DNA from: Amorphus orientalis
GTDB taxonomy: Bacteria > Pseudomonadota > Alphaproteobacteria > Rhizobiales > Amorphaceae
Assembly (NCBI RefSeq): GCF_030814015.1
Contig: NZ_JAUSUL010000002.1
Location: 806,001-870,000 of the forward strand
DNA: 64,000 nucleotides
Direction of reading: 5' to 3'
The position numbers and the translations under genes were made by a program. Numbering within the stretch: the first letter of the stretch is position 1; every line of letters starts with the position of its first letter. Below the pieces are notes generated by a model. That model had not been told where the DNA came from. It saw only the letters and a list, made by a program, of their open reading frames with translations, and did not search any database. This document shows, one piece after another, positions 21,243 to 63,990 of the stretch.

Positions 21243-21319
21243 CTTGTTTGCGCGCAGCCGCCACACCAACCCTGCGGGCGAGGCTCCGAGTTCGAACTTC
21301 GTTCGATCCTCTCCGCCAC
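21234..21319 (+). repeat. 86-bp direct repeat, left copy
   Basis: Starts in the tRNA acceptor end and runs into the flank; matches 62919-63004 at 84 of 86 positions (offset 41685). It includes a T-loop-like GAGTTCGAACTT and ends in CCGCCAC, so it looks like a second, decayed tRNA end. Confidence 0.75.
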
Positions 21320-21348
21320 CCCGCTTCCTGGCGGCGTCGGTCTGATAT

Positions 21349-29591: not shown

Positions 29592-29886
29592 CAATCCCTC
29601 CTCGGTATGCGCATTCTTTTTGTCGAAGGCAGCCTCCACTGCCATCGCGCGGACCATCGCACCGGTTAAGACACCTTTCAATAGTCAGTTTTAATTTCAT
29701 CGGAGATTTTTTGTTTTCTCCTATTTTTAGAAATCCCCCGATCCGATGATGCCGGGGCGTCCCAGGGAATCAGATGCAGCGCGCCCCCGTGAAGCAGCGC
29801 TTGCCGCGGGCTTCGACGACGCTTGAGAAAGCGCCGTCGCTTGGGCAAGGTGGCCCTCAGATCAAAAACAGATACTCATAGGGTCC
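29592..29886. promoter_or_regulatory. Divergent promoter region of the quinate/TRAP operon and GntR gene
   Basis: 295 bp between the divergent receptor and GntR genes. The section 29676-29750 is clearly AT-rich against the GC-rich background and contains an inverted repeat GGAGA (29702-29706) / TCTCC (29717-29721). This is the expected place for a GntR operator; the exact site is inferred. Confidence 0.5.
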
Positions 29887-30564: not shown

Positions 30565-30769
30565 ACATTTTGGCCCAATCGAAAGCACCGGGAAATGGAA
30601 GCGACGGGAACGAAACCCCGGTTTCGGCATGCCCGAGAGGTCATCCAACTAGATACGATCACGTAGCTCCCGCAACGCCCTCGGTTTGAATCGAACCCAT
30701 CAGAGTCGTCGATGACGGCATCAAGTTCGCAATGGTCAGACCAATCGGACCGCACAGTGAGGACGTCGC

Positions 30770-30968
30770 CGCGGAAGACGCCGATCTTAATCTAATCGTG
30801 GATCTGCTCAACTAAGCTACGGCGGAGACAGGCCGGGGTGTTCCGCAGATCGCTATCGAGTGGCTGGCTGATCGGTCGCCGGTCTCCTCCGTCATTATTG
30901 GCGCCCGCGACGAGCACCAGCTTCGCCAGAATCTAGTTGCGCTCGAAGAGTACCGAGTTCCGACCATC
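30770..30968 (+). pseudogene. Aldo/keto reductase C-terminal relic
   Basis: After an in-frame TAA at 30813, the frame from 30816 reads ATAETGRGVPQIAIEWLADR followed by SPVSSVIIGARDEHQLRQNL (30876-30935), the unmistakable C-terminal part of aldo/keto reductases. The N-terminal 240 or so residues are missing, so this is a remnant. The same frame runs without a stop into the MerR gene start at 30999. The rest of 30565-30998 holds no recognisable feature. Confidence 0.75.
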
Positions 30969-30998
30969 TCGTGCGCCTCGAACGGGCCAAGGCAAAAA

Positions 30999-31358
30999 AT
31001 GAAGATTGGCGAATTATCGCAGAGGACGGGCGTCAGCGTCAGAATGCTCCGCTACTACGAGGCGCAAGGACTTCTGGCTCCCGCAAGAAGCGAGACGGGA
31101 TATCGCGATTTCACACCCGACGATGCGGATACGGTCGAACGCATTCGTTTGTTGGGTGCCGCAGGCATGACGCTGGCGATAATAAGGAGGATTCTACCAT
31201 GCTCCCTGAACCAACGGCACGCGTTCGAGCCATGCGACGAGCTTAAGGCCGAACTTCGGCGGCAAATCGGATCAATCGACGATCAAAACCGCAAGCTCGC
31301 TGAAAGCCGTGAGCTGCTGACTGATCTTCTTAGCGAGTTCGAAGCCTCCACACTCTAG
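30999..31358 (+). CDS. MerR-family transcriptional regulator
   Basis: 119 residues with the MerR N-terminal domain MKIGELSQRTGVSVRMLRYY followed by EAQGLLAPARSETGYRDF, then a short linker and a coiled-coil dimerisation helix (ELKAELRRQIGSIDDQNRKL). No C-terminal effector domain and no metal-binding cysteine pair are evident (a single Cys in PCSLN and one in EPCDELK). It follows the aldo/keto reductase relic, its probable former partner. Confidence 0.88.
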   Translation: MKIGELSQRTGVSVRMLRYYEAQGLLAPARSETGYRDFTPDDADTVERIRLLGAAGMTLAIIRRILPCSLNQRHAFEPCDELKAELRRQIGSIDDQNRKLAESRELLTDLLSEFEASTL

Positions 31359-31575
31359 GGAGCGGCTCATCCGCCATACGGAAAAACCCAGAAGTGTCAG
31401 CGGGCAGAGTCCAACGCCAAGTATGTCAACCGGAAAGCGAGCGAAGAGGGTCATCGGCTACGGACATGATCTCGGCTCGCTCGCGAAGCGGACGGTAAAG
31501 ACCTCTGCACAAAATGGTCATCCGCCCGCAAATGCCGTTTCTCGTCGGGCTGCTAACATCCGGGAAGTCTGCAGT

Positions 31576-31944
31576 TCAGGAATGAGCACCCACGGCCTCG
31601 AACAAGATCAACTCGACACGCTCGTTGCCGGAGACATAGGCGTCGTGCCCCGGCGGTATCTCGAAGAAGTCGCCTTTCCTGATCGACGTCTCCTCACCGC
31701 TTTCGACCATCCGGACCACCAGGCTGCCTGACAGGCAGTAGCCGGTATGATGCATCGGACATGTATGAGGGGAGCCAAGAAGCGGCTTTTCATCCGCCTC
31801 CCAGGTCCAGCCGGGCTCGAATACGGCGTGCATGCCGGTGGAGCCCTGCGTCGTCTTGACGATGTCGATGCCACCGCGCTCTTTCATGTCGAGCCGGTCG
31901 TCCGGGGTCTCAAAGCGACGGGTTTCGATGGTTGTGGCTGTCAT
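31576..31944 (-). CDS. Cupin-domain protein
   Basis: 122-residue single cupin barrel. Motif 1 with its metal-type histidines is seen in PHTCPMHHTGYCLSGSLVV and motif 2 in GDFFEIPPGHDAYVSG. Function is not predictable. It is the last of three small genes on the minus strand (tautomerase, truncated globin, cupin) facing an HxlR regulator, with gaps of 33 and 45 bp, so they are probably co-transcribed. Confidence 0.85.
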   Translation of the reverse strand: MTATTIETRRFETPDDRLDMKERGGIDIVKTTQGSTGMHAVFEPGWTWEADEKPLLGSPHTCPMHHTGYCLSGSLVVRMVESGEETSIRKGDFFEIPPGHDAYVSGNERVELILFEAVGAHS

Positions 31945-31989
31945 GATCTGCCTGTCTTTCTGCAGCCGGGTCCAAAAGACCTGCTGCGC

Positions 31990-32391
31990 TCATGCATGGA
32001 TGATTTCGGTTTTCAGAGACTCGAGGATTCGTCCGACCTCGGCGCGGATCTCCGCGTCGTGGTTCAGGGTCTTCATCGTTCCCAGGATATCGTCCGCAGC
32101 GGCATCGTATTCCGCCGCCTCGATCGCCATGCCGCGATGGGCCTCAGCCATGCTTCGGCCCGTGTAGGTGTCGGGCCCGCCACTGCCGGCAGCGAAGAAG
32201 TCGCAGGTGTGCTGCTTGATCTCCTCGACCCGTTCAGGTCGGTCTGCATACGGCTGGAAGCGGTGGGCGATCAGGGGGTTGTCCATATGGGCCGCTACGG
32301 CGCCGTCGACGATCCGACGAATGCCGGCTGCACCACCGAGGCGGTCGTACAGCGTCGCGGTGTCCGATTCTTCTGCTTGTACCCGGGCCAT
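31990..32391 (-). CDS. Group I truncated hemoglobin
   Basis: 133-residue 2-on-2 globin. TLYDRLGGAAGIRRIVDGAV is the family N-terminus; the proximal heme His is in MAEAHRGMAI, and the E-helix region is EEIKQHTCDFFAAGSGGP. Such proteins bind oxygen and nitric oxide and are linked to NO detoxification or redox sensing. It sits between tautomerase and cupin genes on the same strand. Confidence 0.9.
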   Translation of the reverse strand: MARVQAEESDTATLYDRLGGAAGIRRIVDGAVAAHMDNPLIAHRFQPYADRPERVEEIKQHTCDFFAAGSGGPDTYTGRSMAEAHRGMAIEAAEYDAAADDILGTMKTLNHDAEIRAEVGRILESLKTEIIHA

Positions 32392-32424
32392 GATTGCTCC
32401 CCTCCACTCATTGGGTGAGTTTGG

Positions 32425-32646
32425 TCAGGTGAGTTCGGACTGATGGGCCTTAACATCGGCTGCCGTCAGAGGCTTGCCGCCGATGGCCCACTCTCCACTG
32501 GCGATTTCCTGCACACGGACCCAGGTGACACCGCGCATGGCCTCGCCCTCGATGCCCACCATCGCTTCAGTCACGTCCCGGATCATTTTCTGCTTCTGAG
32601 CGTCGTCGAAAACGCCTTCAATCAGCTCGATGTCGACGAGTGGCAT
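32425..32646 (-). CDS. 4-oxalocrotonate tautomerase-like protein
   Basis: 73-residue small tautomerase. The catalytic Pro follows the initiator Met (MPLVDIELIEG), so after Met removal Pro1 is the general base. KQKMIRDVTEAMVGIEG is the family helix. The substrate is unknown. First gene of the small minus-strand cluster with globin and cupin, divergent from the HxlR regulator. Confidence 0.88.
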   Translation of the reverse strand: MPLVDIELIEGVFDDAQKQKMIRDVTEAMVGIEGEAMRGVTWVRVQEIASGEWAIGGKPLTAADVKAHQSELT

Positions 32647-32793
32647 TGGCTCCTCCTGTCAGTTTCGGTCGGCCTTGCTCCACCGAAGGTTGTTCGGCAT
32701 TTTTGAAGGCTGACAGCTGCGGTGGGCGGTTGCCAGTTCACGAACTGAATCGGGGCCGGTACAGCTTCTGAACTGGCAGGGCATTCGAAGGCC
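32647..32793. promoter_or_regulatory. Divergent promoter region, tautomerase cluster / HxlR gene
   Basis: 147 bp separating the divergent tautomerase and HxlR genes, so both promoters and probably the HxlR operator lie here. No clear palindrome was identified. Confidence 0.4.
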
Positions 32794-33531
32794 ATGTCAG
32801 AAAGCCGTCCCATGATGGAAGGGAGGCAGCCCATGACCAACGCGAGCTACAAGCAGTTTTGCCCCGTCGCGATGGCGTCCGAGATCCTCTGCACCCGCTG
32901 GACCATGGTCCTGTTACGAGAACTGGTTGCCGGATCGACCCGGTTCAACGAGTTGCGCCGGGGTGTGCCGCGGATGTCGCCAGCCCTGCTGTCCAAGCGC
33001 CTGAGCGAGTTGGAAGCGGCCGGAATAGTGCAGCGCGAGCGGCTCGCAGGATCGCCGGAAGTCAATGCCTACCGGCTAACCCAAGCCGGGCTGGATCTGC
33101 AGCCGGTGGTGGAGGCTGTCGGCCTATGGGGTCAGAAGTGGGTTGAAAGCGAGCCTTCGCTGGAGAATCTCGATGCCGAGCTTCTCATGTGGGACATGCG
33201 CCGAAACCTCGACACGCGGCCGGTCCCGGCACGCCGGGTCGTGATCGCGTTCGTCTATCCCGAACTGCCCCGTGCGCAACGCAATTGGTGGCTGATCGTG
33301 GAGCCGGATCGTAGCGTGGATCTCTGCCACATCGATCCGGGCTTCGACATCGATCTCTATGCCACGGTGGATCTGCGGACGATGACGGAGGTCTGGATGG
33401 GGCTTCGCACGGTCAGGGAGGCTATCGACCGCGGCGCCCTTTTGCTTGTCGGGGACCGGAAGATTGCCGACGCGATGCAATCCTGGCTGGGTCTCAGTCC
33501 GTTCGCTCAGCAGGAGAAGCTGGCAAGCTGA
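32794..33531 (+). CDS. HxlR-family winged-helix regulator with C-terminal SCP2-like domain
   Basis: 245 residues. The N-terminal HxlR/MarR-like winged helix is clear (CTRWTMVLLRELVAGSTRFN with RMSPALLSKRLSELEAAGIV). The conserved Cys preceding TRW is present (ILCTRW), a redox-sensing position in some HxlR/QorR proteins. The C-terminal half (about 130-240) resembles a sterol-carrier-protein-2-like fold found in a subset of HxlR regulators. The ATG at 32794 gives a 14-residue leader; ATG at 32833 (MTNASYKQFCPVAMA) is the alternative. Probably controls the divergent tautomerase, globin and cupin genes. Confidence 0.85.
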   Translation: MSESRPMMEGRQPMTNASYKQFCPVAMASEILCTRWTMVLLRELVAGSTRFNELRRGVPRMSPALLSKRLSELEAAGIVQRERLAGSPEVNAYRLTQAGLDLQPVVEAVGLWGQKWVESEPSLENLDAELLMWDMRRNLDTRPVPARRVVIAFVYPELPRAQRNWWLIVEPDRSVDLCHIDPGFDIDLYATVDLRTMTEVWMGLRTVREAIDRGALLLVGDRKIADAMQSWLGLSPFAQQEKLAS

Positions 33532-33589
33532 GCGGCCGAACTCGTTCGGAGTTGCCCCCGTTGAAGAAGCAGTCCATGTGCTGCCCCGG

Positions 33590-33692
33590 CCCGTTCAAAC
33601 AGATTCAGATTGAACGGGACATGCTCAAATTATTGAATCTGATGCCATTTCCGATTGCTCAGATGGTCCCGTCTCCGCGGAAAAGGCTCTAG
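33590..33692 (+). repeat. RIME-like intergenic repeat, copy 1
   Basis: Contains a perfect 9-bp inverted repeat (CCCGTTCAA 33590-33598, TTGAACGGG 33610-33618) followed by a 72-bp section (33621-33692) that matches 50473-50544 at 53 of 72 positions. The layout resembles the palindromic intergenic mosaic elements of Rhizobiales; the family name is an inference. Confidence 0.55.
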
Positions 33693-34036
33693 TCGTCGGG
33701 TGCGGCGGCGATCGGCACGATCCTGTAATTGCCGAGATCAGCCCGGATACCAAGCTCGGCGAACGTCTTCTGCGGATTGAAGCCACTTGCCTCTCGGCGT
33801 GCGCGCATCGTTTCTCTGGCGGCTTCATAGGCAGCTTCGTCGCGCCACTTTACCACGGTGACGATGTTAAAGACCCCATCCCCAGCAACCTGTTCGAGGA
33901 CAAGGTTCTCCAAGCAGCCGTCGAGTGTATCGAGTATCGCATGGGTTTCGCCGACCCTGGCGATGAACGAGTCCCGCGCTGTGGCCGGCACATCGAACTT
34001 GTCGACTCGAACAATAGCATTGGTTGATCGCGGCAT
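33689..34036 (-). CDS. Antibiotic biosynthesis monooxygenase (ABM) domain protein
   Basis: 115-residue dimeric alpha+beta-barrel protein: AIVRVDKFDVPATARDSFIA, a central GCLENLVLEQ strand and VVKWRDEAAYEAARETM are the ABM pattern. Members include heme-degrading and quinol monooxygenases, but many have no known role. ATG at 34036 follows GGAGAAGGCTC; the frame is open 63 codons upstream without homology. It stands alone, next to the RIME-like repeat, which its 3' end slightly overlaps. Confidence 0.82.
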   Translation of the reverse strand: MPRSTNAIVRVDKFDVPATARDSFIARVGETHAILDTLDGCLENLVLEQVAGDGVFNIVTVVKWRDEAAYEAARETMRARREASGFNPQKTFAELGIRADLGNYRIVPIAAAPDD

Positions 34037-34428
34037 GAGCCTTCTCCGGCATGAGAGATGTGTAGAATGCGGTGTCGAGGTGTTCACCACGTGCCCGTCT
34101 GTTTTGGACGTCATGTAGTGAATTCTATTCAACATCAGCCAACGTCGCCGCGATACAGGACATGGATCTTGTTTGCTTTCGGGTCCGTAGACATGCACCG
34201 GAACATTCTCAGCCAGAATGCTCAAGGCTCGGGCGCGCCTTCATCACTGCCGTCATTCGCGCGCCCGACCCTTGTTTGCGAAACGCACATCTCCGTTCTC
34301 AACGAACATCGGCTCCTCCCAGGACGAAGGCGATGACGGCCACAAGCCTGCTCGCCGATTGCCCGGAATGCGCCACGGATCCTCCCGTTCGACCAGCCTG
34401 TATCTACGCGATTGGAAGCCCAACCATG
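34037..34428. other. 392-bp intergenic region
   Basis: Upstream of the ABM gene and downstream of the SRPBCC gene, both minus strand. It has lower GC around 34110-34180 where the ABM promoter would lie. No gene, repeat or RNA recognised. Confidence 0.4.
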
Positions 34429-35358
34429 TCAGCGAGGCGTCACGAAGGCTTCCAGCTTGCCCAGCGTCTGCAACCCCAGTTCCACGGCGCCGAAGCCCTT
34501 CGCCTCCCGGCACTCCGCAGACGTGCTGAACACCATTCCGAGCGTGACCTTCGTCGCCCCATCCTCATCCTCGAATGACGCCCAGGCGTCCGCGTGCTTC
34601 GGACCGTTCTCGCCCCAGTGCAGCGCGTAGCCGATCCTCCCCTCTGGCCGGATTTCGTGATAGCGATGGTGGTTCGGAAAGACCGTGCCGTCGGGCCCGA
34701 TCATGTCGAACACCCATTCGCCGCCGGCCCGCAGATCGATCCTTTTCGTCTGACAGGAGAAGCCTTCCGGCCCCCACCACTGCGGCAGGGTCTCCGCGTT
34801 CATCCATGCGCCCCAAACGATCGATCGCGGCGCCTGGATCACCCGCTGCAGCAGCAAGGTTCGTTCGGCCGTGTCCGCGAGGTTGTCGAGGCCCACACCG
34901 AAGCCTTCCCGGTAGCCCGGCGCCATGTCCTCAGCCAGGGAGGACAGTTGCACGGTGAGCACCAGCCTGCTGCCCTCCTGGGTGCCCGAAACGTTCGCCG
35001 TCACCAGCGCGACCGACTGTTTCACGTCTCCGCTCGAGAGCACTTCGTAGTTCACGCTGCACGCCTCTGGTCGCAGCTCCAGCCAACCGATCTCGCACCG
35101 GATCTCTGGCGCGCCCTCCACCTTGCAGAGCGAAACCTCCCGCCCGCCGATCCTGGTGTCGGCCTCCAGGAACTCCACGGTGACCGAGGGCGACGGTGCA
35201 GCCCAGACCGCCCGCGCGGCCGGCGCCGTCCATGCCTGCCACAGCACCGACGGTGATGCGGCCACGTCCCGTTCGAAGGTCAGCGTCGCGAAACGGCCTT
35301 CCTTGCCGACGGCACCCGCGAGAGGCGCACCGTCGGCCGCACTGCTCTGTCTCATCAT
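34429..35358 (-). CDS. Tandem SRPBCC (AHSA1-type) protein
   Basis: 309 residues comprising two SRPBCC/AHSA1 domains in tandem. The first (about 22-160) begins ATLTFERDVAASPSVLWQAW; the second (about 168-308) begins LLLQRVIQAPRSIVWGAWMN with LPQWWGPEGFSCQ, DLRAGGEWVFDMIGPDG and the family C-terminus GMVFSTSAECREAKGFG. AHSA1-type proteins next to ArsR regulators are common, usually as single-domain proteins; the fusion is less usual. Its ATG overlaps the ArsR stop (ATGA), so it is translationally coupled. Function unknown, likely ligand binding. Confidence 0.88.
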   Translation of the reverse strand: MMRQSSAADGAPLAGAVGKEGRFATLTFERDVAASPSVLWQAWTAPAARAVWAAPSPSVTVEFLEADTRIGGREVSLCKVEGAPEIRCEIGWLELRPEACSVNYEVLSSGDVKQSVALVTANVSGTQEGSRLVLTVQLSSLAEDMAPGYREGFGVGLDNLADTAERTLLLQRVIQAPRSIVWGAWMNAETLPQWWGPEGFSCQTKRIDLRAGGEWVFDMIGPDGTVFPNHHRYHEIRPEGRIGYALHWGENGPKHADAWASFEDEDGATKVTLGMVFSTSAECREAKGFGAVELGLQTLGKLEAFVTPR

Positions 35359-46097: not shown

Positions 46098-47104
46098 TGG
46101 TTCCTCCCCATTTTCGGCTCGCCGTCGAGGCGATCGTCGCATGCCCGTTCGGGCTTCTTGGTTTGGGTCAAGCTCAAGAAGAGATCTTCGAGGCTGAGAA
46201 CCGCATTGCCGACCGACAGCACTGTGAAGCCGTTCTCCGTCAGCAACCGCGATAGGCGTACGCGAGAGTCGGAGATCGCAGGTGCAGATCCCGCAGGGTT
46301 CACGACGACGCGCAGTCTGCCCACCCCGACCTTCGTGACGTCTGCAACCTCGGCGTGGTCCCCTAGCGCGCGAACCGCCGCCTCCGCCGACTCGGCAATC
46401 TCGGCCATGAGCGCACCGTCGTGGGTTGACGAAGGCAGGAGCGATTCTTTGGCGCCTTCCGCAATCACCCTGCCGTCCGAGACGAATACCAGCCGATCTG
46501 AAATCTGTTCCATCTCAGCCAGTTGGTGCGACGAGAACAGAAGCGTCGCTCCCGCCTCCTGCATCTGGCGGAAGATACCGCGCATCTCCGCAATGCCGAC
46601 CGGATCGAGGCCAAGCATCGGCTCGTCGAGGATCAGGAATTCGGGTGCGTGCAGGATTACGCGCGCCAGACAAGTGCGCTGCTGCATCCCCCGCGAAAAC
46701 CCGGCGAGAACCCGGTCAGCGGCATGGTTAAGGCCGACGCGGTCCAGAACTTCGCCCACGCGACGCGCCGGATCGGGCACCTTGTAGACCTGCGCAAAGA
46801 AGGTGAGATAGGCGCGCGCCGTCATCTCGGGATAGATCGGAGGCTTCTCCTGAAGGTAGCCGATGCGCATACGGATATCCCGGCGCGAGCTGCCACCCTC
46901 CTTCCCGAAAAGCCACACCTTGCCTGCATCGGGGCGCAGGAGTCCCAGGGCAATCTTCATCACCGTGGTTTTGCCTGCTCCATTCGGGCCCAGAAATCCG
47001 ACGATCTCGCCTCGCGCGACGTCGAAGCCGACACCATCGAGCGCGCGCTTGCGACCGAAGCTTTTCTCCAGCTCTCGAACGGAAAGGGCGAGGTCCCAGG
47101 TCAT
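46061..47104 (-). CDS. ABC transporter ATP-binding protein (ABC-2 exporter)
   Basis: 347 residues. Walker A GPNGAGKTT at 39-47, signature FSRGMQQRTCLAR, Walker B FLILDEPMLGLDP and the switch His in LFSSHQLAEME. The C-terminal 110 residues form the extension seen in multidrug and lipid ABC-2 exporters. It pairs with the permease at 44475-45296. It begins 3 bp after the small membrane protein gene, so importer and exporter genes are in one transcript. Confidence 0.92.
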   Translation of the reverse strand: MTWDLALSVRELEKSFGRKRALDGVGFDVARGEIVGFLGPNGAGKTTVMKIALGLLRPDAGKVWLFGKEGGSSRRDIRMRIGYLQEKPPIYPEMTARAYLTFFAQVYKVPDPARRVGEVLDRVGLNHAADRVLAGFSRGMQQRTCLARVILHAPEFLILDEPMLGLDPVGIAEMRGIFRQMQEAGATLLFSSHQLAEMEQISDRLVFVSDGRVIAEGAKESLLPSSTHDGALMAEIAESAEAAVRALGDHAEVADVTKVGVGRLRVVVNPAGSAPAISDSRVRLSRLLTENGFTVLSVGNAVLSLEDLFLSLTQTKKPERACDDRLDGEPKMGRNQWSSDIGANAAS

Positions 47105-47107
47105 TGT

Positions 47108-47350
47108 TCAGTAGGGCATCGGAATTATGTAGAGACGCCCAAGATTGATGACGATCATCACCACCCCCGAAGCAAGTAGGAATTCCAGCGGCCAGTTGAG
47201 GACTTTGTATCGGTCGTTTGCGATCTTCATGAGCACGATTACGGCAACCGCAATGAGAGAAGCCGGCCAATGCTGTATTCCGCCGGCCATCGCCGTACAC
47301 GATCCCAGAAGAAAGGCGAGAATGACCAGAAGCCCGATGGTGTTTCTCAT
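47108..47350 (-). CDS. Small membrane protein in the sugar transport operon
   Basis: 80 residues with three hydrophobic segments: the N-terminal IGLLVILAFLLGSCTAMAGG, a middle PASLIAVAVIVLMKIA and the C-terminal PLEFLLASGVVMIVINLG. The ATG overlaps the stop of the CUT1 ATPase gene (ATGA), strongly supporting translation. No family recognised. It lies exactly at the junction of the importer and exporter halves of the operon. Confidence 0.75.
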   Translation of the reverse strand: MRNTIGLLVILAFLLGSCTAMAGGIQHWPASLIAVAVIVLMKIANDRYKVLNWPLEFLLASGVVMIVINLGRLYIIPMPY

Positions 47351-48498
47351 GCCGGCCTCCCCTTCCCGCCAAAGCGGCTTCCCGCGGCCTGTGCGATCGT
47401 GCGGCCGTCGCCGGGGTCGAACAGATAGATCCAGTCGGGATCGAAATGCATGCCCAGCATCGTCCCCTCGACCTTGCCGAGATGCCGCGTATCGTTGGTT
47501 GAGTTTCGGGTGGTGAGTTCGGTGCCGCCGACCCGCAGCACGTAGAGATTTTCCGCGCCCGTCGGTTCGAACGAGTAGAGCTCGGCGTTGATCCCGTGTC
47601 CCTCATCCCCCTGACGGGCAAGCGAGATGTGTTCGGGCCGGATGCCGAGCCGAACGATCTCGCCGACACGCCGGTGCAAACCGTTCGCCTCGGCCCAAGC
47701 CGCGTTCAGAGGCACCACGAACCCGTCGGCTTCGGCAACGACACCGCCCTGATCCGCACGAAGCGTGACGTCGAAGACGTTCATCTGAGGCTCGCCGACG
47801 AACGTCGCAACGAACTCGTTCGCTGGGTTCTCGAACACCTCCAGCGGGGTCGCGTACTGCTGGATCCGCCCCGCGCGCATGACGATGATGCGGTCGGCCA
47901 TCGTCATCGCTTCGAGCTGGTCGTGCGTGACAAAGATGGTCGTTGTGCCGATGCTCTTCTGCAGATGACGCAGTTCCGCCCGCATCTGACCGCGCAGCTG
48001 CGCATCCAGATGCGACATCGGTTCGTCCATCAGAAAGACGTCGGCCTCGCGCACCAGCATCCGCGCGATCGCGACACGTTGGAGCTGTCCCGCCGAAAGG
48101 CTGTCCGGCTTGCGCGACAAGACGTCGGTGATCTGCAGCGTCTCGGCCACCCGGCCGACCTTCTCCGCGATTTCCCGCCGCTGCATCCGGCGCACCTTCA
48201 GCGGATAGGCGATGTTGTTGTGAACGGTCATGTGGCGATAGAGCCCGTAGTCTTGGAAGACCATTCCGACGCTGCGGTAGCGCGCCCGCATGTAGGTTAC
48301 GTCGCGCCCGCCGATGAAAACGCGTCCTCCGCTGGGCATCTCGAGCCCGGAGATCATGCGCAGCGTGGTTGTCTTGCCGCATCCCGACGGACCGAGAAGG
48401 AAGATGAACTCCCCATCGTCCACATGGATGTCGACGTCCGTCACGGCGGTGAAATTGCCGAACCGCTTCTCGAGATTCTCGACGACGAGCTCAACCAT
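47347..48498 (-). CDS. CUT1-type sugar ABC transporter ATP-binding protein A
   Basis: 383 residues of the MalK/UgpC group. Walker A GPSGCGKT at 36-43, Q-loop VGMVFQDYGLYRHM, signature LSAGQLQRVAIAR (Ala in place of the first Gly of LSGGQ), Walker B VFLMDEPMSHLD, and a C-terminal TOBE-type regulatory domain. It is the second ATPase of a heteromeric pair with 52110-53264. The order is ATPase B, receptor, two permeases, ATPase A. Confidence 0.93.
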   Translation of the reverse strand: MVELVVENLEKRFGNFTAVTDVDIHVDDGEFIFLLGPSGCGKTTTLRMISGLEMPSGGRVFIGGRDVTYMRARYRSVGMVFQDYGLYRHMTVHNNIAYPLKVRRMQRREIAEKVGRVAETLQITDVLSRKPDSLSAGQLQRVAIARMLVREADVFLMDEPMSHLDAQLRGQMRAELRHLQKSIGTTTIFVTHDQLEAMTMADRIIVMRAGRIQQYATPLEVFENPANEFVATFVGEPQMNVFDVTLRADQGGVVAEADGFVVPLNAAWAEANGLHRRVGEIVRLGIRPEHISLARQGDEGHGINAELYSFEPTGAENLYVLRVGGTELTTRNSTNDTRHLGKVEGTMLGMHFDPDWIYLFDPGDGRTIAQAAGSRFGGKGRPA

Positions 48499-48528
48499 TG
48501 TCGCCTCCTGCGCCCGCTCGGAGTCCCG

Positions 48529-49386
48529 TCATCGCCCTGCCACGCCTTGCGAAAGGCCGCTGATAAGTTGGCGCTGGGTGATGAGAACGAAGAGGATCAG
48601 CGGCGCGGTCACCAGCACGACTGCGGCACCGAGGACATTCCATTCCACGTCCGCACTGACCGAGTAGGCGAGGATCGCCGGCGGCAGTGTCTTGGCCTGG
48701 GTGGAGGTCAGGAAAGTCGCGAAGACGAACTCATTCCACGACAGGATCATCACGAAGATCGCCGTAGCCGAGATCGATGGAAGCATCAGCGGCAGCGTCA
48801 CCTTTCGAAACGCCTGAAACCACGTGTCCCCGTCGACCATCGCCGACTCTTCGTAGCGTCGCGGTATGTCGCGGAAGTATCCGGTCAGCATCCAGACCAC
48901 GAACGGAAGCTGCATCGCCGTATAGAGCAGGATCATGCCGACCAGCGTGTCGAGCAGCCCGAGCGTCTGGAAGGTGATAAACACCGGGATCAGGATGGCC
49001 ACCGGTGGCATCATCCGGTTGGTCAGCACCCAGAACGAAATATCGTCGCGCCCTGGGAAATCGTAGCGCGCAATTGCATAGGCGCAGAACATTCCGATCG
49101 TGACCGAGAAGAAGGTGGCCGAGAGCGAGATCACCACGCTGTTGAAGAAGTTGTGCATGATGTGCTTCTCGAAGATCAGATACCGGAACGCTTCGAGCGT
49201 CGGCGAGAAGACCCACACCGGACGCCCCGTGTTGAGCGCCGTCTGATCCATGAAGCCGGTGAGTACGACCCAGAGATACGGGATGAAGTTGATCACGCAG
49301 ACGAGTAAAACCACCAGGTAGACCCACCAGTTGCGCTGCACCGGGGGACCGGACGGGGAGACCTCGGATCGCTTATGTCCGACCAT
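48529..49386 (-). CDS. Carbohydrate ABC transporter permease (MalG type)
   Basis: 285 residues, six transmembrane helices, with the EAA loop EESAMVDGDTWFQAFRKVTL contacting the ATPase. ATG at 49386 (MVGHKRSEV) follows GAGGAG; a GTG at 49395 lies inside that ribosome binding site. Works with the adjacent MalF-type permease. Confidence 0.93.
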   Translation of the reverse strand: MVGHKRSEVSPSGPPVQRNWWVYLVVLLVCVINFIPYLWVVLTGFMDQTALNTGRPVWVFSPTLEAFRYLIFEKHIMHNFFNSVVISLSATFFSVTIGMFCAYAIARYDFPGRDDISFWVLTNRMMPPVAILIPVFITFQTLGLLDTLVGMILLYTAMQLPFVVWMLTGYFRDIPRRYEESAMVDGDTWFQAFRKVTLPLMLPSISATAIFVMILSWNEFVFATFLTSTQAKTLPPAILAYSVSADVEWNVLGAAVVLVTAPLILFVLITQRQLISGLSQGVAGR

Positions 49387-49398
49387 CGCTCGCACTCC

Positions 49399-50376
49399 TC
49401 AGTTGGCCACGTCGGTGCGCGAACGCAGCAGGCGGATGAAAATGAAACTCATGACCACGATCAGCATCATCATGATCAGCGAGATGGCTGCCGCCTTCGA
49501 CGCATCGAAAAACTCCAGTCCCGTCTTGGTGAGATAGACGTTGAGAGTGGTGGTCGCGTTGCCCGGCCCTCCGCGCGTCATGACAGTGATCAGCTCATAG
49601 ATGCGGAACGCATCCATCGTCCGGATCACCACCGCGATCAGGATTGCGGGTCGCAGGAGTGGCAACGTGATCGTCCAGAACACCCGCCAGGCGGACGCGC
49701 CATCAATTTCGGCCGCCTCGTATGGCTGGCGTGGAAGCTGGGCCAGGCCCGCCGACATCATCAGGAACATGAACGGCGTCCATTCCCAGATGTCGACAAA
49801 GATCAGGACCTGGAGCGCGATGTCGGGATCGGAGAGAAACGGGATCGCGCTTTGGCCGAACAAATCCGTGACCAGCCCGGAATAGTAGGTCACCAGCCCC
49901 GTTCCGGGATAGAACATGTACCGCCAGATGAGCGCGGCCACGAGCGGTGGCAGTACCATTGGGATCATGATGAAGATCCGCAGCACCGACCCAAACCGCA
50001 AGGCACGCTGGAACAGGAGCGCGAGCCCGAGCCCGAGCCAGAATTCGACGAATACGGCTTCGAGAGTGAAAATCGTCGTCAGCCGAAGCGCGTGCCAGAA
50101 TTCCGGGTCCTGAATCACCAGCTGATACTGGTAGAGTCCCATGAAGATCTGCGGGAGATAGGGCTTCGATAGGACCACGTTCTGGCTGGCGATGAACAGC
50201 GCATAGAGGAAGGGATAGACGCCCATCGCGAACAGGATGAGCAGCGTGGGCGCCATCAACACCCACGGAAACACCTTGCGGTTGGAGGGACCGAACCGGG
50301 CAAGCAGGCTCCGTCTGTTTGCCGGGGTCTTCTCCGCCTTCGCGGTTCCGACGCCGATGCTTTCGGCTCGCGTCAT
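49399..50376 (-). CDS. Carbohydrate ABC transporter permease (MalF type)
   Basis: 325 residues with six to seven transmembrane helices. FPWVLMAPTLLILFAMGVYP is the typical first helix and the EAA loop is EAAEIDGASAWRVFWTITLP. It forms the membrane channel with the MalG-type subunit 12 bp downstream and faces the two ATPases. Confidence 0.93.
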   Translation of the reverse strand: MTRAESIGVGTAKAEKTPANRRSLLARFGPSNRKVFPWVLMAPTLLILFAMGVYPFLYALFIASQNVVLSKPYLPQIFMGLYQYQLVIQDPEFWHALRLTTIFTLEAVFVEFWLGLGLALLFQRALRFGSVLRIFIMIPMVLPPLVAALIWRYMFYPGTGLVTYYSGLVTDLFGQSAIPFLSDPDIALQVLIFVDIWEWTPFMFLMMSAGLAQLPRQPYEAAEIDGASAWRVFWTITLPLLRPAILIAVVIRTMDAFRIYELITVMTRGGPGNATTTLNVYLTKTGLEFFDASKAAAISLIMMMLIVVMSFIFIRLLRSRTDVAN

Positions 50377-50472
50377 CCCTTCCCTGCCTTTCGTGTGCCG
50401 GAAGAACCGTGAATCTTGTCAACCGCTCGGAGCAGGTCCCGATCAATCGGCATTGTTCTGACCAACCGAGAC

Positions 50473-50544
50473 TTGCTCAAACTATTGATTCTAAATTCAT
50501 TTCACGTCGCTCAGATGGAGCCATCTGAACGGAAAAGGCTTCAG
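50473..50544 (+). repeat. RIME-like intergenic repeat, copy 2
   Basis: 72 bp matching 33621-33692 at 53 of 72 positions in the same orientation. It contains an intact 8-bp palindrome TCAGATGG-AG-CCATCTGA (50510-50527) that is degraded in copy 1. It lies between the permease and receptor genes, a place where an mRNA hairpin could affect relative expression. Confidence 0.55.
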
Positions 50545-50600
50545 ACGAACCGATCGGGTGGACCCGCTGGACGTGCCAACGGGTCCGGCCGAAAGGCGCT

Positions 50601-52025
50601 TCAGTTCCATTCCGAGGGAAGGCGGTCGTAGTAGGTGAGATCGCGCCAGTGCTGCGGCGGATTCTCGCGGCCCGGAATGTAGTAGCCGCCCCGGCGCATC
50701 ACCTGCGTCATGCGACGCTGCATGTTGGCGGCTGCCGTTTCCGCATCGATCTCGCCGATCCAGACCCGGTTGCCTTCCTCGCCCATGATGTCGGAGATCT
50801 CGGCCCACTCCGGCACGCGGATGCGCTCATCCGGATTGGTGGTATTGAGCATGTATTCGTAGACGTCCGTCCACCACGGCTGATGCTCGGCCAGAGTCTC
50901 GGATTTGTAGGTGGAATGGCGGACCGGCGGTGCGCCGAATTCCGTCGCCCGTTCCTGGATCTCCGGTGAGGTAATCCACTGGATGAACGTCCAGGCGGCC
51001 TCCTTGTTCTTGGAATCCCGAGAGATTCCGAGTGTCCACGCGCCGAACCAGGGATCGATCACGCCGTGCGGCCCAGCCGGCGTGTGCAGGTGCACATTCT
51101 TGCCGGCGATCTCGGGCTGTGTCTCCGGATCCTCGAAGAAGCCGTTGATGAACTCGGTGTAGCTCCAGGTGCCGAAGGCGTTCCCGGCCTGATAGACGGC
51201 CGTCGCCTCGCCGATGCCCCAGTTGGCACTGTCGGCGGGCATGAACTCCTTGAAGCTGGTGAAGTAATTGATCGAGTCGATCGTCCGCTCGTTGTCGATG
51301 GTGATCTTCCATTCTTCATCGACATATTCGTCGCCCTTGGTCTCGGGCGTCTGGAAGGCATAAAGATAGGGCAGATAGGTTACGCCCCAGAACCAGCGGC
51401 CGGGCATATTGGCAAAGCCAATCATGCCGGTCTCCGGATTGTTCACCTTCGCCGCGGCATCGTACATGAAGTCCGTGGTGAACTTCGGATCGAAGCGCTC
51501 GGGCAAGTCGATACCCGCCTCTTCCGCCACATCCTTGCGGAAAGTCGTTCCGGTCGGCGCGGCACCGATCGGAATCGTGTAGAGTGTCTCGTCATAGACG
51601 CCGCTGCCGGAAATAATCCGGGGCAGGAAGTCGTCGATATCGTAACCTTCGGCCGTCAGGTCCGGGTTTTTGACATAGTCCATGATCGGTTGAAGGAACC
51701 CGGCGGCTGCGTACTCGGCGAGCCACATGACGTCGACGGCATAGATGTCGTAGGCACCCGTGCCCTGCTGCATCTCGACTAGCGACTTCTGTCGATACTG
51801 GTCGAACGGCACCTGATCGACGATCACGGTGATGCCGAACTCCTCTTCGAACTCGTCGATGAACCGACCAAGCGCCGCGAACTGCGGCATGGACGGCTGC
51901 AGAAACCGGATCTCCGTTCCCTCGAGCTCTTTCTGGACGTCAGTCTGGGCGTGTCCCAGCGTTGCGAATGGCATGGTCAGCGCGACGGCCATCCCTCCCA
52001 GTCCGGCAATCTTCAATATTCGCAT
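50601..52025 (-). CDS. Carbohydrate ABC transporter solute-binding protein
   Basis: 474-residue family 1 periplasmic receptor. The signal peptide (MRILKIAGLGGMAVALTMPF, cleavage near GHAQ) is followed by EIRFLQPSMPQFAALGRFID, EEFGITVIVDQVPFDQYRQK and the closing WTFIQWITSPEIQERATEFG. The ligand is unknown; the rest of the locus suggests a polyol, rare ketose or deoxy sugar. ATG at 52025 is preceded by GGAGGGAAC. Confidence 0.92.
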   Translation of the reverse strand: MRILKIAGLGGMAVALTMPFATLGHAQTDVQKELEGTEIRFLQPSMPQFAALGRFIDEFEEEFGITVIVDQVPFDQYRQKSLVEMQQGTGAYDIYAVDVMWLAEYAAAGFLQPIMDYVKNPDLTAEGYDIDDFLPRIISGSGVYDETLYTIPIGAAPTGTTFRKDVAEEAGIDLPERFDPKFTTDFMYDAAAKVNNPETGMIGFANMPGRWFWGVTYLPYLYAFQTPETKGDEYVDEEWKITIDNERTIDSINYFTSFKEFMPADSANWGIGEATAVYQAGNAFGTWSYTEFINGFFEDPETQPEIAGKNVHLHTPAGPHGVIDPWFGAWTLGISRDSKNKEAAWTFIQWITSPEIQERATEFGAPPVRHSTYKSETLAEHQPWWTDVYEYMLNTTNPDERIRVPEWAEISDIMGEEGNRVWIGEIDAETAAANMQRRMTQVMRRGGYYIPGRENPPQHWRDLTYYDRLPSEWN

Positions 52026-52109
52026 CGTTCCCTCCTCTTTTTTGACTGTATGCGACAACGGCCTCGTTGTTGTTCTTGGGCCGTGCCCCTATTTTTGGGG
52101 CTGCCAGAG

Positions 52110-53264
52110 TCAGATTGTCTGCATCGTCGTAAACCGCGCCTGGCGGATCGTTCGCCCATCGGCAGCGTCGAAAAGATAGACAAAGTCCGGGTCGATCCGG
52201 ACGGCGATGGGCGCATTGAGTTCCTGCGGAAACGCGCGTGCCTGGTCTACGCTGGTCAGCACGCGGACGACGTTCTGCTTGCTGCCGCCTGAGATTTCGA
52301 CGTCGAACACGACGCGCGAGCCCAGCGTTTCCACAGCGAAGACGACGCCCCGGATGATCCCGGCGCCCCTCTCGTCCGGCCGCGCCAACGTGACCTGCTG
52401 CGGCCGGATCCCGGCAATGAGATCCTGAACGGCAGAGAGGTCAGGTCCGCGTCCCAGCCAATCGTCGTCGATCGGGACATCGCCGCCCGCAATCAGAAGG
52501 CGCGCGTTCCCTGCTTCCTGATGAAGTTGCGCGGGGAACGTATTCATATGGGGCTCGCCCACGAAGGTTGCCGCGAACAGGGTTTCCGGCTCGTCGAACA
52601 GTGTCTGAGGCGCCGCAACCTGCTCAATCCGACCTTCGTTGATCAGGATTATGCGGTCCGCCATCGTCATCGCCTCAAGCTGGTCGTGGGAGACGTAGAG
52701 CATTGTCGCCTCGAACTCGCGCTGAAGCCGTTTGAACTCGACCCGCATTCGCGCCCTCAGTTGCGCGTCGAGATGCGAAATCGGTTCATCCAGAAGAAAA
52801 ACGTCGGCATCGCGCACCAAGGCCCGACCGATCGCGACCCGCTGCATCTGACCGCCGGAGAGCTCTGACGGACGACGGTCGAGCAGTTCCGATATCTGCA
52901 GGGTGTCGGCGACCGCATCAATCCGCGACCTGATGTCGTTCTTCGCCAGCCGGCGCGCGCGCAGCGGGTAAGCGAGGTTTTCGAAGACGGCCATGTGCGG
53001 GAACAGCGAGTGCTTGTCATAGACCATCGCGACATTGCGGTCGCGAGGACTCCAGGTCGTGACATTCCGCCCGCGGATCCACACGGCACCCTGCGTCACC
53101 TCCTCCAAGCCCGCTATGATGCGCAAGGTCGTCGTTTTCCCGGCGCCCGAGGGTCCAAGCAGGAAGACGGCCTCACGATCCTCCACATGCAGCGAGACGC
53201 CCTTCAGCGCCTGGGTTCCATCCTTGAATGTCTTGGAGAGAGTCTCGACGCGAAGCTCGCCCAT
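52110..53264 (-). CDS. CUT1-type sugar ABC transporter ATP-binding protein B
   Basis: 384 residues. Walker A GPSGAGKTTT, signature LSGGQMQRVAIGR, Walker B VFLLDEPISHLD and switch His in LYVSHDQLEAMT are canonical. The Q-loop is not: VAMVYDKHSLFPHM has Asp where the Gln of VFQ normally sits. A C-terminal TOBE-like domain is present. First gene of the minus-strand operon; ATG at 53264 (MGELRVETLSKTF) is the family start. It pairs with ATPase A at 47347-48498. Confidence 0.92.
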   Translation of the reverse strand: MGELRVETLSKTFKDGTQALKGVSLHVEDREAVFLLGPSGAGKTTTLRIIAGLEEVTQGAVWIRGRNVTTWSPRDRNVAMVYDKHSLFPHMAVFENLAYPLRARRLAKNDIRSRIDAVADTLQISELLDRRPSELSGGQMQRVAIGRALVRDADVFLLDEPISHLDAQLRARMRVEFKRLQREFEATMLYVSHDQLEAMTMADRIILINEGRIEQVAAPQTLFDEPETLFAATFVGEPHMNTFPAQLHQEAGNARLLIAGGDVPIDDDWLGRGPDLSAVQDLIAGIRPQQVTLARPDERGAGIIRGVVFAVETLGSRVVFDVEISGGSKQNVVRVLTSVDQARAFPQELNAPIAVRIDPDFVYLFDAADGRTIRQARFTTMQTI

Positions 53265-53554
53265 CGGACGCCTACCGCAGATCGCCGCAGAACGCCGGAA
53301 AGCTCTCGATTGCCGGCACCGGCCCCCGTGGAAGAGCGGACATTCGCAAAACCAATCCTCCCTCAACGTCGCCCGTCACCACCCGGCCGCTCAGACGGCT
53401 CTCACTTCAGGCGACGCAACTACCGAGGACGGTAGCAGGCATGAAATTATGTGTCTAGAAACTAAAATTCCTTGAAGGATCTTTTCATGAATGAGTATTG
53501 TAGCCTCGAAGCGCCCCACCCAAACAGGGCCCAAGGCGCTGGAGGCGAAAAAGA
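53265..53554. promoter_or_regulatory. Divergent control region of the carbohydrate locus
   Basis: 290 bp between the ATPase B gene (minus strand) and the RpiR gene (plus strand). The stretch 53440-53505 is AT-rich compared with its surroundings and includes half-site-like TGAA and TTCA words. Both promoters and the RpiR operator should be here; no exact operator is claimed. Confidence 0.5.
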
Positions 53555-54472
53555 GTGACAGGCGTGGAAATTGGGATCCTCGATCACATCCAGGGCATTC
53601 GCGGCAGCTTGAAACCGTCGCTGCAGGCGGTTGCCGATCAGGTATTGGACCGCCCCGAGCTGGCCCGCAGGATGAGCGTCAAAGAGCTCGCGCTCGCCTA
53701 TTCCGTCTCGGAAGCTTCGGTCAGCCGTTTCGTTCGCAGCATCGGCATCAAGAGCTTCCGCGATTTCCAGCTGCGGCTGGCAGAAGAGCGTGTCGGCGAA
53801 GCGAAGGGGCGCGAGACCCAGTCCGACGAAGGTTCCCTGTACGAAAGCATCGGGCGCGAGGATTCTACGGCCTCGATCCTGCACAAGGTTGCGCATCGCA
53901 CGTCCGACGTCGCACGCGCCTGCCTGTCGACCCTCGATCCGGTCGCGCTGGACCGGGCTGCTGCCCTGATCCACAACGCCAGCGCTCTCTATGTGTTTGC
54001 GGCCGGCCTGTCCGACCTCGCCTGCGACAACGCGGTGATCCGATTTTCACGAATCGGCATCCCCGTCGTCTCGACCTCTGACCACAACACACAACAGTTG
54101 ATGGCAAGCGCGTTGACCAAACGGGCGGTCGCCCTAGGAATCAGCGATTCCGGCCGCACTACCCACACCGTTTCAGCGCTTGCGGAAGCCCAGGCGGCTG
54201 GCGCGGGGACGATTGCGGTCACCTCCTTCGGCGAGTCGCCCCTGGCGCGGATCGCCGACGTCACCCTGGTCACGCCGACCGGATACGCCTCGCCCGGAAA
54301 CGAGCCGCTGCACGAAAGCATGCTGAGCAAGTTCGGCCAGCTCATCGCGATCGACGCACTCTACAGCGTCGTTGCCGTGTCTGACTACGACCGCTCCGTC
54401 AGCTCCGTTCGACGTGGTGACCGCTTCATCCAAAGAAGCCGCAGCAACCGCCAGATGAACGGAAAGGGCTGA
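53555..54472 (+). CDS. RpiR-family transcriptional regulator
   Basis: 305 residues from GTG (53555). The N-terminal RpiR HTH is LARRMSVKELALAYSVSEAS followed by VSRFVRSIGIKSFRDFQLRL; the C-terminal SIS domain (about 120-265) binds phosphosugars, with IHNASALYVFAAGLSD, ALGISDSGRTTHTV and GAGTIAVTSFGESPLARIAD. It is divergent from the importer operon and heads the catabolic operon, so it very likely controls both in response to a sugar phosphate. Confidence 0.92.
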   Translation: MTGVEIGILDHIQGIRGSLKPSLQAVADQVLDRPELARRMSVKELALAYSVSEASVSRFVRSIGIKSFRDFQLRLAEERVGEAKGRETQSDEGSLYESIGREDSTASILHKVAHRTSDVARACLSTLDPVALDRAAALIHNASALYVFAAGLSDLACDNAVIRFSRIGIPVVSTSDHNTQQLMASALTKRAVALGISDSGRTTHTVSALAEAQAAGAGTIAVTSFGESPLARIADVTLVTPTGYASPGNEPLHESMLSKFGQLIAIDALYSVVAVSDYDRSVSSVRRGDRFIQRSRSNRQMNGKG

Positions 54473-62435: not shown

Positions 62436-62787
62436 ACTAAGGCATCATGGTTCTCGGACGCATAGAAGACATACCTTCTGAAGGAGTGAGCGCACGGGAG
62501 CCAATATTGAAGATCTGGCGGGGGGCCGGGAAGCAGCCAATCGACATGCTTCAATTTAACCATGAACCCAACACTTGAGATTCTTTGGATTCAAGGAAAG
62601 AGCAATTGTAACCAGATTGCGCCTAGAAGAGCGGTCTAACGTAGGGTCCAAAGACCGAGCGAGGCATGACTACTTGCTGAAGAGTAGGCCATCTAACTTC
62701 GTCCAACAGATTGGACAACACCCCATCCCCCTAAACAGAAAATAATCTATGTTATTCAACATATTAAAACCGACATTCAGTTAAACA
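62436..62787. other. AT-rich non-coding junction
   Basis: About 350 bp between the catabolic operon and the first tRNA-end repeat. The part from 62560 to 62787 is markedly AT-richer than the rest of the window. No gene, integrase fragment or RNA is recognised; it looks like the eroded end of an inserted element. Confidence 0.5.
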
Positions 62788-62810
62788 CGAATCCCACCTC
62801 CTCCGCCATC
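62788..62810 (+). repeat. Right att-like direct repeat (tRNA-Ser 3' end)
   Basis: 23 bp identical to 21220-21242, i.e. the T-loop to CCA end of tRNA-Ser plus two flanking bases, without the rest of the tRNA. Interpreted as an attR core. Confidence 0.6.
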
Positions 62811-62888
62811 ATTTCGCTCACGGCAGTTTCGCTTCGCTCAACGCCTCCGCGGCGGCGGCCTGACCGGCCGACGGGCGGTCGCCCGCTG

Positions 62889-62925
62889 GGCTCTGAGTTC
62901 GAACTTAAGGCGGATGGGTCCGCCA
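62889..62925 (+). repeat. Degenerate tRNA-end-like remnant
   Basis: GGCTCTGAGTTCGAACTT at 62889-62906 matches 17 of 18 bases of 21282-21299 and of 62967-62984 and, like them, is followed after 12 nt by TCCGCCA. It sits between the two right-hand repeats and appears to be a further decayed att copy. Confidence 0.5.
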
Positions 62926-63004
62926 TCCTTGTTTGCGCGCAGCCGCCACACCAACCCTGCGCGCGAGGCTCCGAGTTCGAACTTCGTTCGATCCTCTGCG
63001 CCAC
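62919..63004 (+). repeat. 86-bp direct repeat, right copy
   Basis: Matches 21234-21319 at 84 of 86 positions; the match ends within one base of the CCAC on both sides. It lies 108 bp beyond the 23-bp repeat, so the right boundary of the island is a stack of tRNA-derived ends. Confidence 0.75.
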
Positions 63005-63096
63005 TATCCCGTTAACATTAAAACGGTTTTTCCTCCGTTCCGGATCCGGTGCAAGGTCTGAGACGCCTCCGTGACAGGGCGCGTCGGGCAATGTGC

Positions 63097-63990
63097 TCAG
63101 GACCGCTCGGGCCCGAGTTCGAACCGGTCCATCAGCTCCGGCAGGATCGGATGCTGGTAGGTCCGGCGGATCATGACCGCGAAGAACACTTCGCTGATCT
63201 CGGGCAGCTGCTCGATCTCGACCAGCGCGCCGCTTGCGAGCTCGTCCCTCACCACGATCGGCGGGATCACCGCCAGTCCGATGCCCTCGCGCGCAAGAAG
63301 ACGGGCCATGGCCATGTCGTCCACCTCGGCGGCGACCTTCGGTTCTGCGCCCAGGCGATTGACGAGTGCGTCGAAGCCGGTGCGCAGGCCGCTGGAGCGG
63401 GACGGGAGGATGAGCGGTGACGTCTGCAGGCGGTCCAGAAGCGATGCATCGGGACGGTCGAGGGACGGGACGCCGATGAGGCCGACCGATTGCTCCGCCA
63501 GTCGATGGACGATGAACGGTGTCGGACCGTCCGTCTCGGGCGGACGGTTGGTCAGCACCAGATCCAGATGCAGCATCTCCAGCGCCTCCAGCAGTTCGCT
63601 GCGGCTGCCGGAGCGCAGGATGACTTCGGTATCAGGCTGGGCGAGCGCGGGCTTCAGGAAATTGAGCTGGAAGTTGCGCGAGAGCGTCGCGATCGCGCCC
63701 ACCCTCAGCGGGCGCCGGGCCACCGATGCCTGGCTCAGGACCGACAGCAGGTCGCTGCCCGCCTCGAAGATGCGATCCGCGTGATCCAGCGCGATCCGGC
63801 CGGCCTCGGTCAGATGGAGGGCCCGCCCGCGGCGCTCGAAGAGCGGCTGACCGAGGCGCGCTTCGAGCTGCCGGATCTGGGACGACAGAGCGGACTGCGA
63901 CACATTCAGCCGGGCCGCGGCCCGCGTAAGGTGGCCCTCATGCGCGACGATCTGGAAATAACGGAGATGGTGATAGTTGAGGTCGGCCAT
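63097..63990 (-). CDS. LysR-family transcriptional regulator (NhaR-like)
   Basis: 297 residues. The N-terminus LNYHHLRYFQIVAHEGHLTR followed by AAARLNVSQSALSSQIRQLE is a LysR HTH of the NhaR-like group (LNYHHLxYF). The C-terminal substrate-binding domain is complete (LRVGAIATLSRNFQLNFLKP). Start ATG at 63990, 10 bp from the window edge. It lies outside the repeat-bounded block and probably belongs to the core genome; its targets are beyond the window. Confidence 0.9.
   Translation of the reverse strand: MADLNYHHLRYFQIVAHEGHLTRAAARLNVSQSALSSQIRQLEARLGQPLFERRGRALHLTEAGRIALDHADRIFEAGSDLLSVLSQASVARRPLRVGAIATLSRNFQLNFLKPALAQPDTEVILRSGSRSELLEALEMLHLDLVLTNRPPETDGPTPFIVHRLAEQSVGLIGVPSLDRPDASLLDRLQTSPLILPSRSSGLRTGFDALVNRLGAEPKVAAEVDDMAMARLLAREGIGLAVIPPIVVRDELASGALVEIEQLPEISEVFFAVMIRRTYQHPILPELMDRFELGPERS

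Follow-up and report, generated by a model that had tools for sequence, protein, structure and literature searches.

The right boundary examined here holds one displaced tRNA end, which marks a large probable insert, and the other tRNA-like pieces beside it belong to two families of cassettes that resemble tRNA-linked repeats (TLRs), the TLR-like cassettes A and B. The window, i.e., the whole 64,000-nucleotide stretch of DNA that was analysed, corresponds to C2:806001-870000 of the 4.71-Mb genome G000, referred to below as the own genome. The leading reading, to which we give a probability of roughly 0.5, is that the right junction of a 41.6-kb insert at tRNA-Ser(TGA) is followed by a two-unit trailer array of mobile TLR-like cassettes, with integrases acting in trans. 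On this reading, the trailer array A-B would once have stood directly after tRNA-Ser(TGA), and the 41.6-kb insertion would have parted the tRNA from its trailers, leaving the displaced 3' end at 62788-62808. A, B, and the left-end copy of B are gene-free TLR-like cassettes with a fixed offset after the CCA, a hairpin-rich body, and an imitation of a tRNA 3' end, the tail running from the T loop through about 5 extra bases and then from T60 to A76. The features concerned are the following:

21151-21240, + strand: live tRNA-Ser(TGA), ending in CCA (ARAGORN; Rfam tRNA, 63.9 bits)
21220-21242, + strand: left copy of the 23-mer, attL-like, from the T loop to CCA plus TC (exact repeat, family D7)
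21241-21318, + strand: left copy of cassette B, 78 bp, directly 3' of the live tRNA, with its tail from 21291 (sequence; 98% to the right copy)
21241-62808, no strand: probable insert, the 41,568 bp that separate one tRNA end from the other (D7 spacing, PF00589 search, congener comparison)
62788-62810, + strand: right copy of the 23-mer, attR-like, displaced 3' end of tRNA-Ser(TGA) (exact repeat, ends search)
62809-62925, + strand: cassette A (117 bp), which starts behind the displaced CCA and closes with the following CCA; its tail occupies 62898-62925 (sequence; relatives elsewhere)
62812-62889, + strand: core of A, a sequence that is dispersed between genes elsewhere in the own genome as well (own-genome search)
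62926-63003, + strand: right copy of cassette B, 78 bp, tail 62976-63003 (D3 repeat; RNA fold z -3.81)
62919-63004, + strand: 86-bp copy, made up of TCCGCCA (7 shared bases), cassette B (78 bp), and 1 base (D3)

The three tRNA-Ser-related pieces that the sequence-only reading had pointed out at this boundary are real, being an exact 23-mer, one member of an 86-bp pair with 98% identity, and the tail of A, of which 7 nt are exact. The 23-mer consists of the last 21 bases of tRNA-Ser(TGA) plus two more and is identical at 21220-21242 and 62788-62810, with the 3' end of the tRNA itself duplicated exactly at 62788-62808, 41,568 bp from the original. A search of C2:806001-1070000 for this tRNA end, allowing up to 6 mismatches, found no copy beyond that one extra. 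The 86-bp pair (family D3) lies at 21234-21319 and 62919-63004, and a chance origin of the 23-mer and the 86-mer was rejected because both are too long. The middle piece, 62889-62925, is the tail of A; taken alone, it agrees exactly with the end of tRNA-Ser(TGA) over the last 7 nt only (TCCGCCA), and it acquires its meaning through the family described below.

A tRNA-anchored insertion of the 41.6-kb segment is likely, judging from sequence, because the tRNA end is displaced by 41.6 kb and similarity to the sole congener (G001) continues through the tRNA and ends at the tRNA 3' end. The pattern in the congener fits such an insertion: the right flank is found there in inverted orientation, with about 6.5 kb between it and the far end of the block that matches the left flank, and the right 19.7 kb of the segment has a single counterpart, a 67% piece of 0.65 kb. 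The same 19.7 kb has a 3.3-kb piece at 77% in G005, a genome of the same family. No clean empty site for the segment was found in the congener, which is rearranged there. Seven of the eight proteins scanned inside the segment contain Pfam domains, namely DctM, DctP, GntR/FCD, FGGY kinase, SBP_bac_1, short-chain dehydrogenase, and xylose-isomerase-like barrel. Two stretches inside it, 24147-24446 and 28602-28901, are 65% alike and are probably paralogues, since they overlap the two DctP-like genes. G+C content is about 0.58-0.62 at 29000-35000 and 47000-54000 inside the segment and 0.65-0.70 to its left. Of the 13 matches to the tyrosine integrase domain (PF00589) in the own genome, none lies inside the 41.6-kb segment, which counts against the integrase-borne arrival that we infer for it.

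The same arrangement is seen at a second tRNA-Ser of the own genome, tRNA-Ser(GCT), and this supports the leading reading. Here the live gene, which has an integrase match roughly 1 kb downstream of it, lies 68 kb upstream of a 23-nt copy of its own 3' end, and unit A (96%) comes after that copy at C1:1534669. The whole region, C1:1466709-1534806, thus reads as a 68-kb segment at the tRNA, a displaced end, and then unit A (loci L126-L129 and L011). A further possible island might run from tRNA-Ser(CGA) to a composite of units at C1:1167394: a match to the integrase domain is placed 9 kb from this tRNA, but a search of C1:1150001-1196000 at up to 6 mismatches turned up no displaced copy of its end.

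For the 41.6-kb segment only, an alternative would place the boundaries at the two copies of B, with a circle composed of B, 41 kb, the tRNA end, and A having entered by recombination at a B already present after the tRNA. Three features of the 86-bp pair speak for this account, namely its length, which exceeds that of the 23-mer, its 98% identity, and its ends, which coincide with unit boundaries. However, the 23-mer copies this particular tRNA exactly and is then followed by A at its usual 6-nt offset, for which a displaced original end is the simplest explanation, and tRNA-Ser(GCT) shows the same order without B at the left end. We regard boundaries at B as improbable.

Both cassettes recur at fixed distances behind tRNA genes in other genomes. 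The sequence 62788-63004 was matched at E<=1e-8 in 13 of 61 genomes, the own genome included. In other genera and families, the match often starts directly 3' of a tRNA gene, including those for Ser(TGA), Ser(CGA), Ser(GGA), Ser(GCT), Leu(CAA), Leu(TAG), Leu(GAG), and Thr(CGT); other matches, e.g., in G001, G016, G021, and G037, have no tRNA adjoining. When the species-genome collection was searched with a pattern for A (tRNA 3' end, CCA, 2-9 nt, CGCTCACGGC), 54 loci were retrieved, 33 of them with a gap of 6. Carriers of the gap-6 loci are almost all Alphaproteobacteria, among them Stappia, Nitratireductor pacificus, Hoeflea, Methylosinus, Methyloligella halotolerans, Methylobrevis pamukkalensis, and Marinicaulis flavus, and the gap-6 matches L167 and L189, which come from other groups, look like chance. 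A shorter A motif was present in 32 of 397 genomes of the order, with the reversed pattern present in none, and the B motif gave 6 matches in 5 of 394 genomes, one of them the window's own, with none read backwards. Going by these counts, most genomes of the order are without A or B in strict form. After pooling and deduplication, 87 A loci were obtained, 76 with a called tRNA, and the motif stands exactly 6 nt after the CCA in 55 of those 76; for B, the gap after the tRNA CCA is exactly 11 nt in 6 of 6. In a Caulobacteraceae MAG (L157), a 19/20 copy of the 3' end of tRNA-Thr(CGT) lies about 200-220 nt after the tRNA, beyond an A-type unit.

These offsets bear directly on the explanation that had been offered for the boundary, i.e., that each of the three pieces is the decayed att site of a large element, several such elements having inserted at tRNA-Ser(TGA) and been lost again. 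It is true that tRNA-Ser genes are integration targets in the own genome and that one real displaced end stands at the right boundary, but independent deletions would not produce matching bodies and offsets behind many tRNA genes across other families. Given the fixed offsets and the conserved bodies, several decayed large islands were rejected as the source, and we consider such a history very improbable. Rather than remnants of several elements, the two extra pieces are the tails of discrete fixed-offset units, and such units stand behind numerous tRNA genes of other genera and families. What survives of the proposed history at this tRNA is one likely tRNA-anchored insertion with tRNA-end-like tails behind it, not the decay of several large elements.

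The T-loop-to-CCA look that had been ascribed to these pieces holds at the level of the family and is weak for A. Tails are laid out from the T loop as TTCGAA, extra bases, and then a copy of T60-A76, and the extra bases number 5 in 17 of the 24 tail rows that score at least 10/17. The best tail, that of L185, is exact at 17/17 from T60, the left copy of B scores 12/17, and the tail of A in the window falls below 10/17, with TCCGCCA alone kept. Scores of at least 11/17 were reached in 17 of 84 tail rows, as compared to a mean of 7.9 (sd 2.0, maximum 13, 200 sets) when ends were swapped between isotypes; the 84 rows include the right copy of B, an unfair row in that A, and not a tRNA, stands before it. 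Tails resemble the tRNA behind which they stand: over 62 loci (tRNA present, gap 4-9, loose core test; 64 before deduplication), the matches between host-tRNA end and tail sum to 411, against a mean of 352 (sd 10) for permuted partners, and 0 of 20,000 permutations reached the observed sum. These permutations overstate independence because the Ser units are related, and they kept probable chance matches outside Alphaproteobacteria (such as L145, L152, L165, L168, and L189). The best tail match ends 113-120 nt out at 22 of the 62 loci, and at many single loci the match is no better than controls. The poor match of many tails to their own tRNA, 7 nt for A in the window, counts against the mobile-cassette reading.

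Copies of these sequences are also found elsewhere in the own genome. A comparison of 62780-63140 to it yielded at least 53 matches at E<=10, scoring having extended to 40 of the 93 initial candidates; they mostly cover the core of A at 62812-62889, with about 75-87% identity where longer, in intergenic mosaics. Among 25 copies away from tRNAs that were taken from these matches and examined (L013-L038 without L036), 20 sit 3' of the end of a same-strand gene, gene ends having been called by a simple composition rule. Because most matches cover the core in intergenic mosaics and 20 of 25 follow gene ends, the core of A is a dispersed repeat. The sequence-only reading had named dispersal of the repeats away from tRNA-Ser as the result that would speak against it, and this is what is seen for the core of A in the 25 copies examined, whereas the AGTTCGAACTT tail occurs at 5 places only. 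The latter pattern, AGTTCGAACTT-N(0-28)-GCCA, has 5 occurrences in the 4.71 Mb of the own genome, against 0 for its reversed form: twice at the right boundary, once after the live tRNA, at C1:1167472, and at C1:1534777. In the own genome, the AGTTCGAACTT tail is thus confined to tRNA-Ser ends or to the composite at C1:1167394-1167617, in which the order is tail-A-tail-B-tail. Behind tRNA-Ala(GGC) at C1:262974 (L195) stand two tandem A units with a tail that differs from the AGTTCGAACTT type; their first 79 bases are identical, and the first unit ends in GCGCCACCA. With A at or beside the ends of tRNA-Ser(TGA), Ser(GCT), and Ala(GGC), one core occupies several tRNA loci of the own genome.

Two further intergenic repeats of this genome are interleaved with A cores, the one palindromic (GCAAATCCCAGGAAAAGTGGGAACCGGTTTTCCGTCCGGGATTTGC and variants; L016, L017, L018, L019, and others) and the other represented by CTCCGCTCATTCCCGCGAAAGCGGGAATCCAGGGC. 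A similar stretch, CCTAACACCTTGAA...GTTTTCGG.GTTCGAA, follows the genome's own tRNA-Ser(CGA) and the tRNA-Ser genes of two genomes of another genus (L005, L244, and L253) and is possibly the end of a shared island family.

Units behind different tRNAs of one genome resemble each other. A-type units at different tRNAs within a genome have a mean identity of 0.703 (17 pairs), compared to 0.598 for units at the same anticodon in other genomes (106 pairs) and 0.541 for units at different tRNAs (1362 pairs), and the within-genome mean was reached in 0 of 5000 label shuffles. In this comparison, L188 was assigned to G005 because the sequences are identical. Four of the 17 within-genome pairs lie below 0.54, under the between-genome average, which counts against the mobile-cassette reading. 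Conversely, the same tRNA can be followed by different units in congeners. Among the 14 genomes of the genus to which G151 belongs, the DNA behind tRNA-Ser(GCT) is A in 3, B in 1, an A-like unit in 1, and other DNA in 9, the change starting past the CCA, and a third unit type (C) stands after Ser(CGA) in two and after Ser(GGA) in one; the labels A, B, A-like, and C were assigned here by reading. No cassette insertion polymorphism with both flanks conserved was found among these 14 genomes, and this counts against mobility. Comparisons of downstream flanks rose above threshold only for G151-G177 and G406-G402, plus the A unit itself (G404 against G151/G177). Because the downstream flanks are unalignable except in two species pairs, we take the differences in this genus as variability at the tRNA end and not as proven insertion.

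The main rival to mobility is that the units are putative transcribed tRNA trailers with an RNA role, e.g., in 3' processing, in termination, or as small RNAs, roles of the kind reported for E. coli rrA, rrB, and rrF. Such trailers would have multiplied through tandem duplication and gene conversion, with the CCA-like tail retained as a cutting site of tRNA-processing enzymes. This account is favored by hairpins that persist although their stems have changed: in the 53 units (of 55) used for the count, a central hairpin is present in 44, as opposed to a mean of 20.8 and a maximum of 31 in 100 shuffled sets, and stems are exchanged between units (CGGCC/GGCCG, CGGGC/GCCCG, and GCGCG/CGCGC). A second hairpin is present in 39 units versus 26.4 in shuffled sets (maximum 34), where the count excludes overlaps and the shuffled control includes them. 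The copies of B fold better than shuffles (z -3.81 and -1.90), the 20 of 25 core copies after same-strand gene ends would suit a transcribed role, and the tandem units at tRNA-Ala would suit duplication. On the other side, window A (z 0.28) and the five other A-type units among the eight folded (-0.41 to -1.91) are no more stable than shuffles beyond z -1.91, and Rfam gave no match at 62500-63100 up to E 5. At 21100-21400, Rfam returned the tRNA, a sub-threshold sX4 hit across the tRNA and B (28.2 bits against a gathering threshold of 70), and a sub-threshold plastid family. RNAalifold on 25 units gave 10 pairs, 3 of them changed on both sides, a weak covariation, and was uninformative on 55 units; the pairing could serve RNA or folded DNA. 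Moreover, tandem duplication alone gives neither alike units at different tRNAs of a genome nor different units at one tRNA in congeners. We hold an RNA role with duplication and conversion to be somewhat unlikely.

Mobility by borrowed integrases is the leading, unproven reading. In it, the cassettes would be mobile but non-autonomous, recombining at the tRNA 3' end with tyrosine integrases that probably come in trans from islands targeting tRNA genes. Units could stack, given that a CCA end would remain after every insertion, and displaced ends would decay. This reading draws on observations given above, namely the exact displaced tRNA end, the fixed offsets, the resemblance of tails to the host tRNA, the likeness of units within a genome, and the differing units behind one tRNA in congeners. 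The movement of the units, the enzyme, and the order of events are all what we infer, and several results count against them: 78-117 bp is very small for a circular intermediate, and searches of plasmid and phage collections gave no match to the cassettes. More tentatively still, Alphaproteobacteria may carry families of 80-120-bp gene-free integrative elements specific for tRNA 3' ends, whose tail is the displaced end, which hop with borrowed integrases, and of which the E. coli TLRs are the same kind. If true, these would perhaps be the smallest integrative elements known. A warning also follows: when short fragments of a tRNA end lie close to a tRNA, lost islands are not necessarily their source.

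Similar to genomic islands at tRNA genes, the locus has an intact tRNA and a displaced 3' fragment 41.6 kb on in the same orientation. In Islander, an island is recognized by a tRNA together with a displaced fragment, must have an integrase, and is rejected as a candidate if shorter than 2 kb (PMC4383910). In contrast to Islander islands, no integrase (PF00589) was found inside the 41.6-kb segment, and cassettes of 78-117 bp would be absent from Islander lists because of that size limit. REPs sit mainly downstream of coding regions (PMC3733652), and the core of A is like REPs and other mosaic intergenic palindromic repeats in being palindromic, dispersed, and mostly 3' of genes. Unlike REPs, which are palindromes of 20-40 bp with a GTAG or CGTC tag, it is about 77 bp long, keeps a fixed distance to tRNA ends, and carries a tRNA-like tail.

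The closest comparison is to the TLRs of E. coli, which have been described since 1978 and, as a family, had no known function (PMC8144298). Ten loci with 22 such sequences are reported there, each sequence closing with 18-19 bp identical to the end of the tRNA or rRNA upstream of it. In the K-12 tyrTV array, we found the 19-nt end of tyrV repeated at +178, +356, and +534, the copy beginning in the T loop. A blastn search (word 11, E<=0.01) of window positions 62809-63003 against 20,395 E. coli records gave no match, a weak test for short repeats, and no title on tRNA-anchored repeats in Alphaproteobacteria was found in the open-licence literature, although we do not claim absence from print. 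The units here are 117 and 78 bp, unlike the 178 of the tyrTV TLRs, and their tails, unlike those in E. coli, are mostly imperfect, with about 5 extra bases. The last 18-19 bp are not identical to the upstream end (the best is 17/17 in L185, with 12/17 for the left B and 7 nt for A), for which reason we call the units TLR-like and not TLRs. In other respects the agreement is close: units stand immediately 3' of tRNA genes (the left B, and the fixed offsets in 55 of 76 and 6 of 6 loci), one core is found at several tRNA loci of a genome, and, as in E. coli, cassettes begin right after the tRNA CCA, end in a tail that imitates the upstream tRNA 3' end from the T loop, and can be in tandem. The result is a second TLR-like set, alike in anatomy without detectable sequence similarity and spread over alphaproteobacterial families and many tRNA types, which provides comparative material on the possible movement of these repeats, on the way in which the host tRNA end gets copied, and on a possible activity as RNA.
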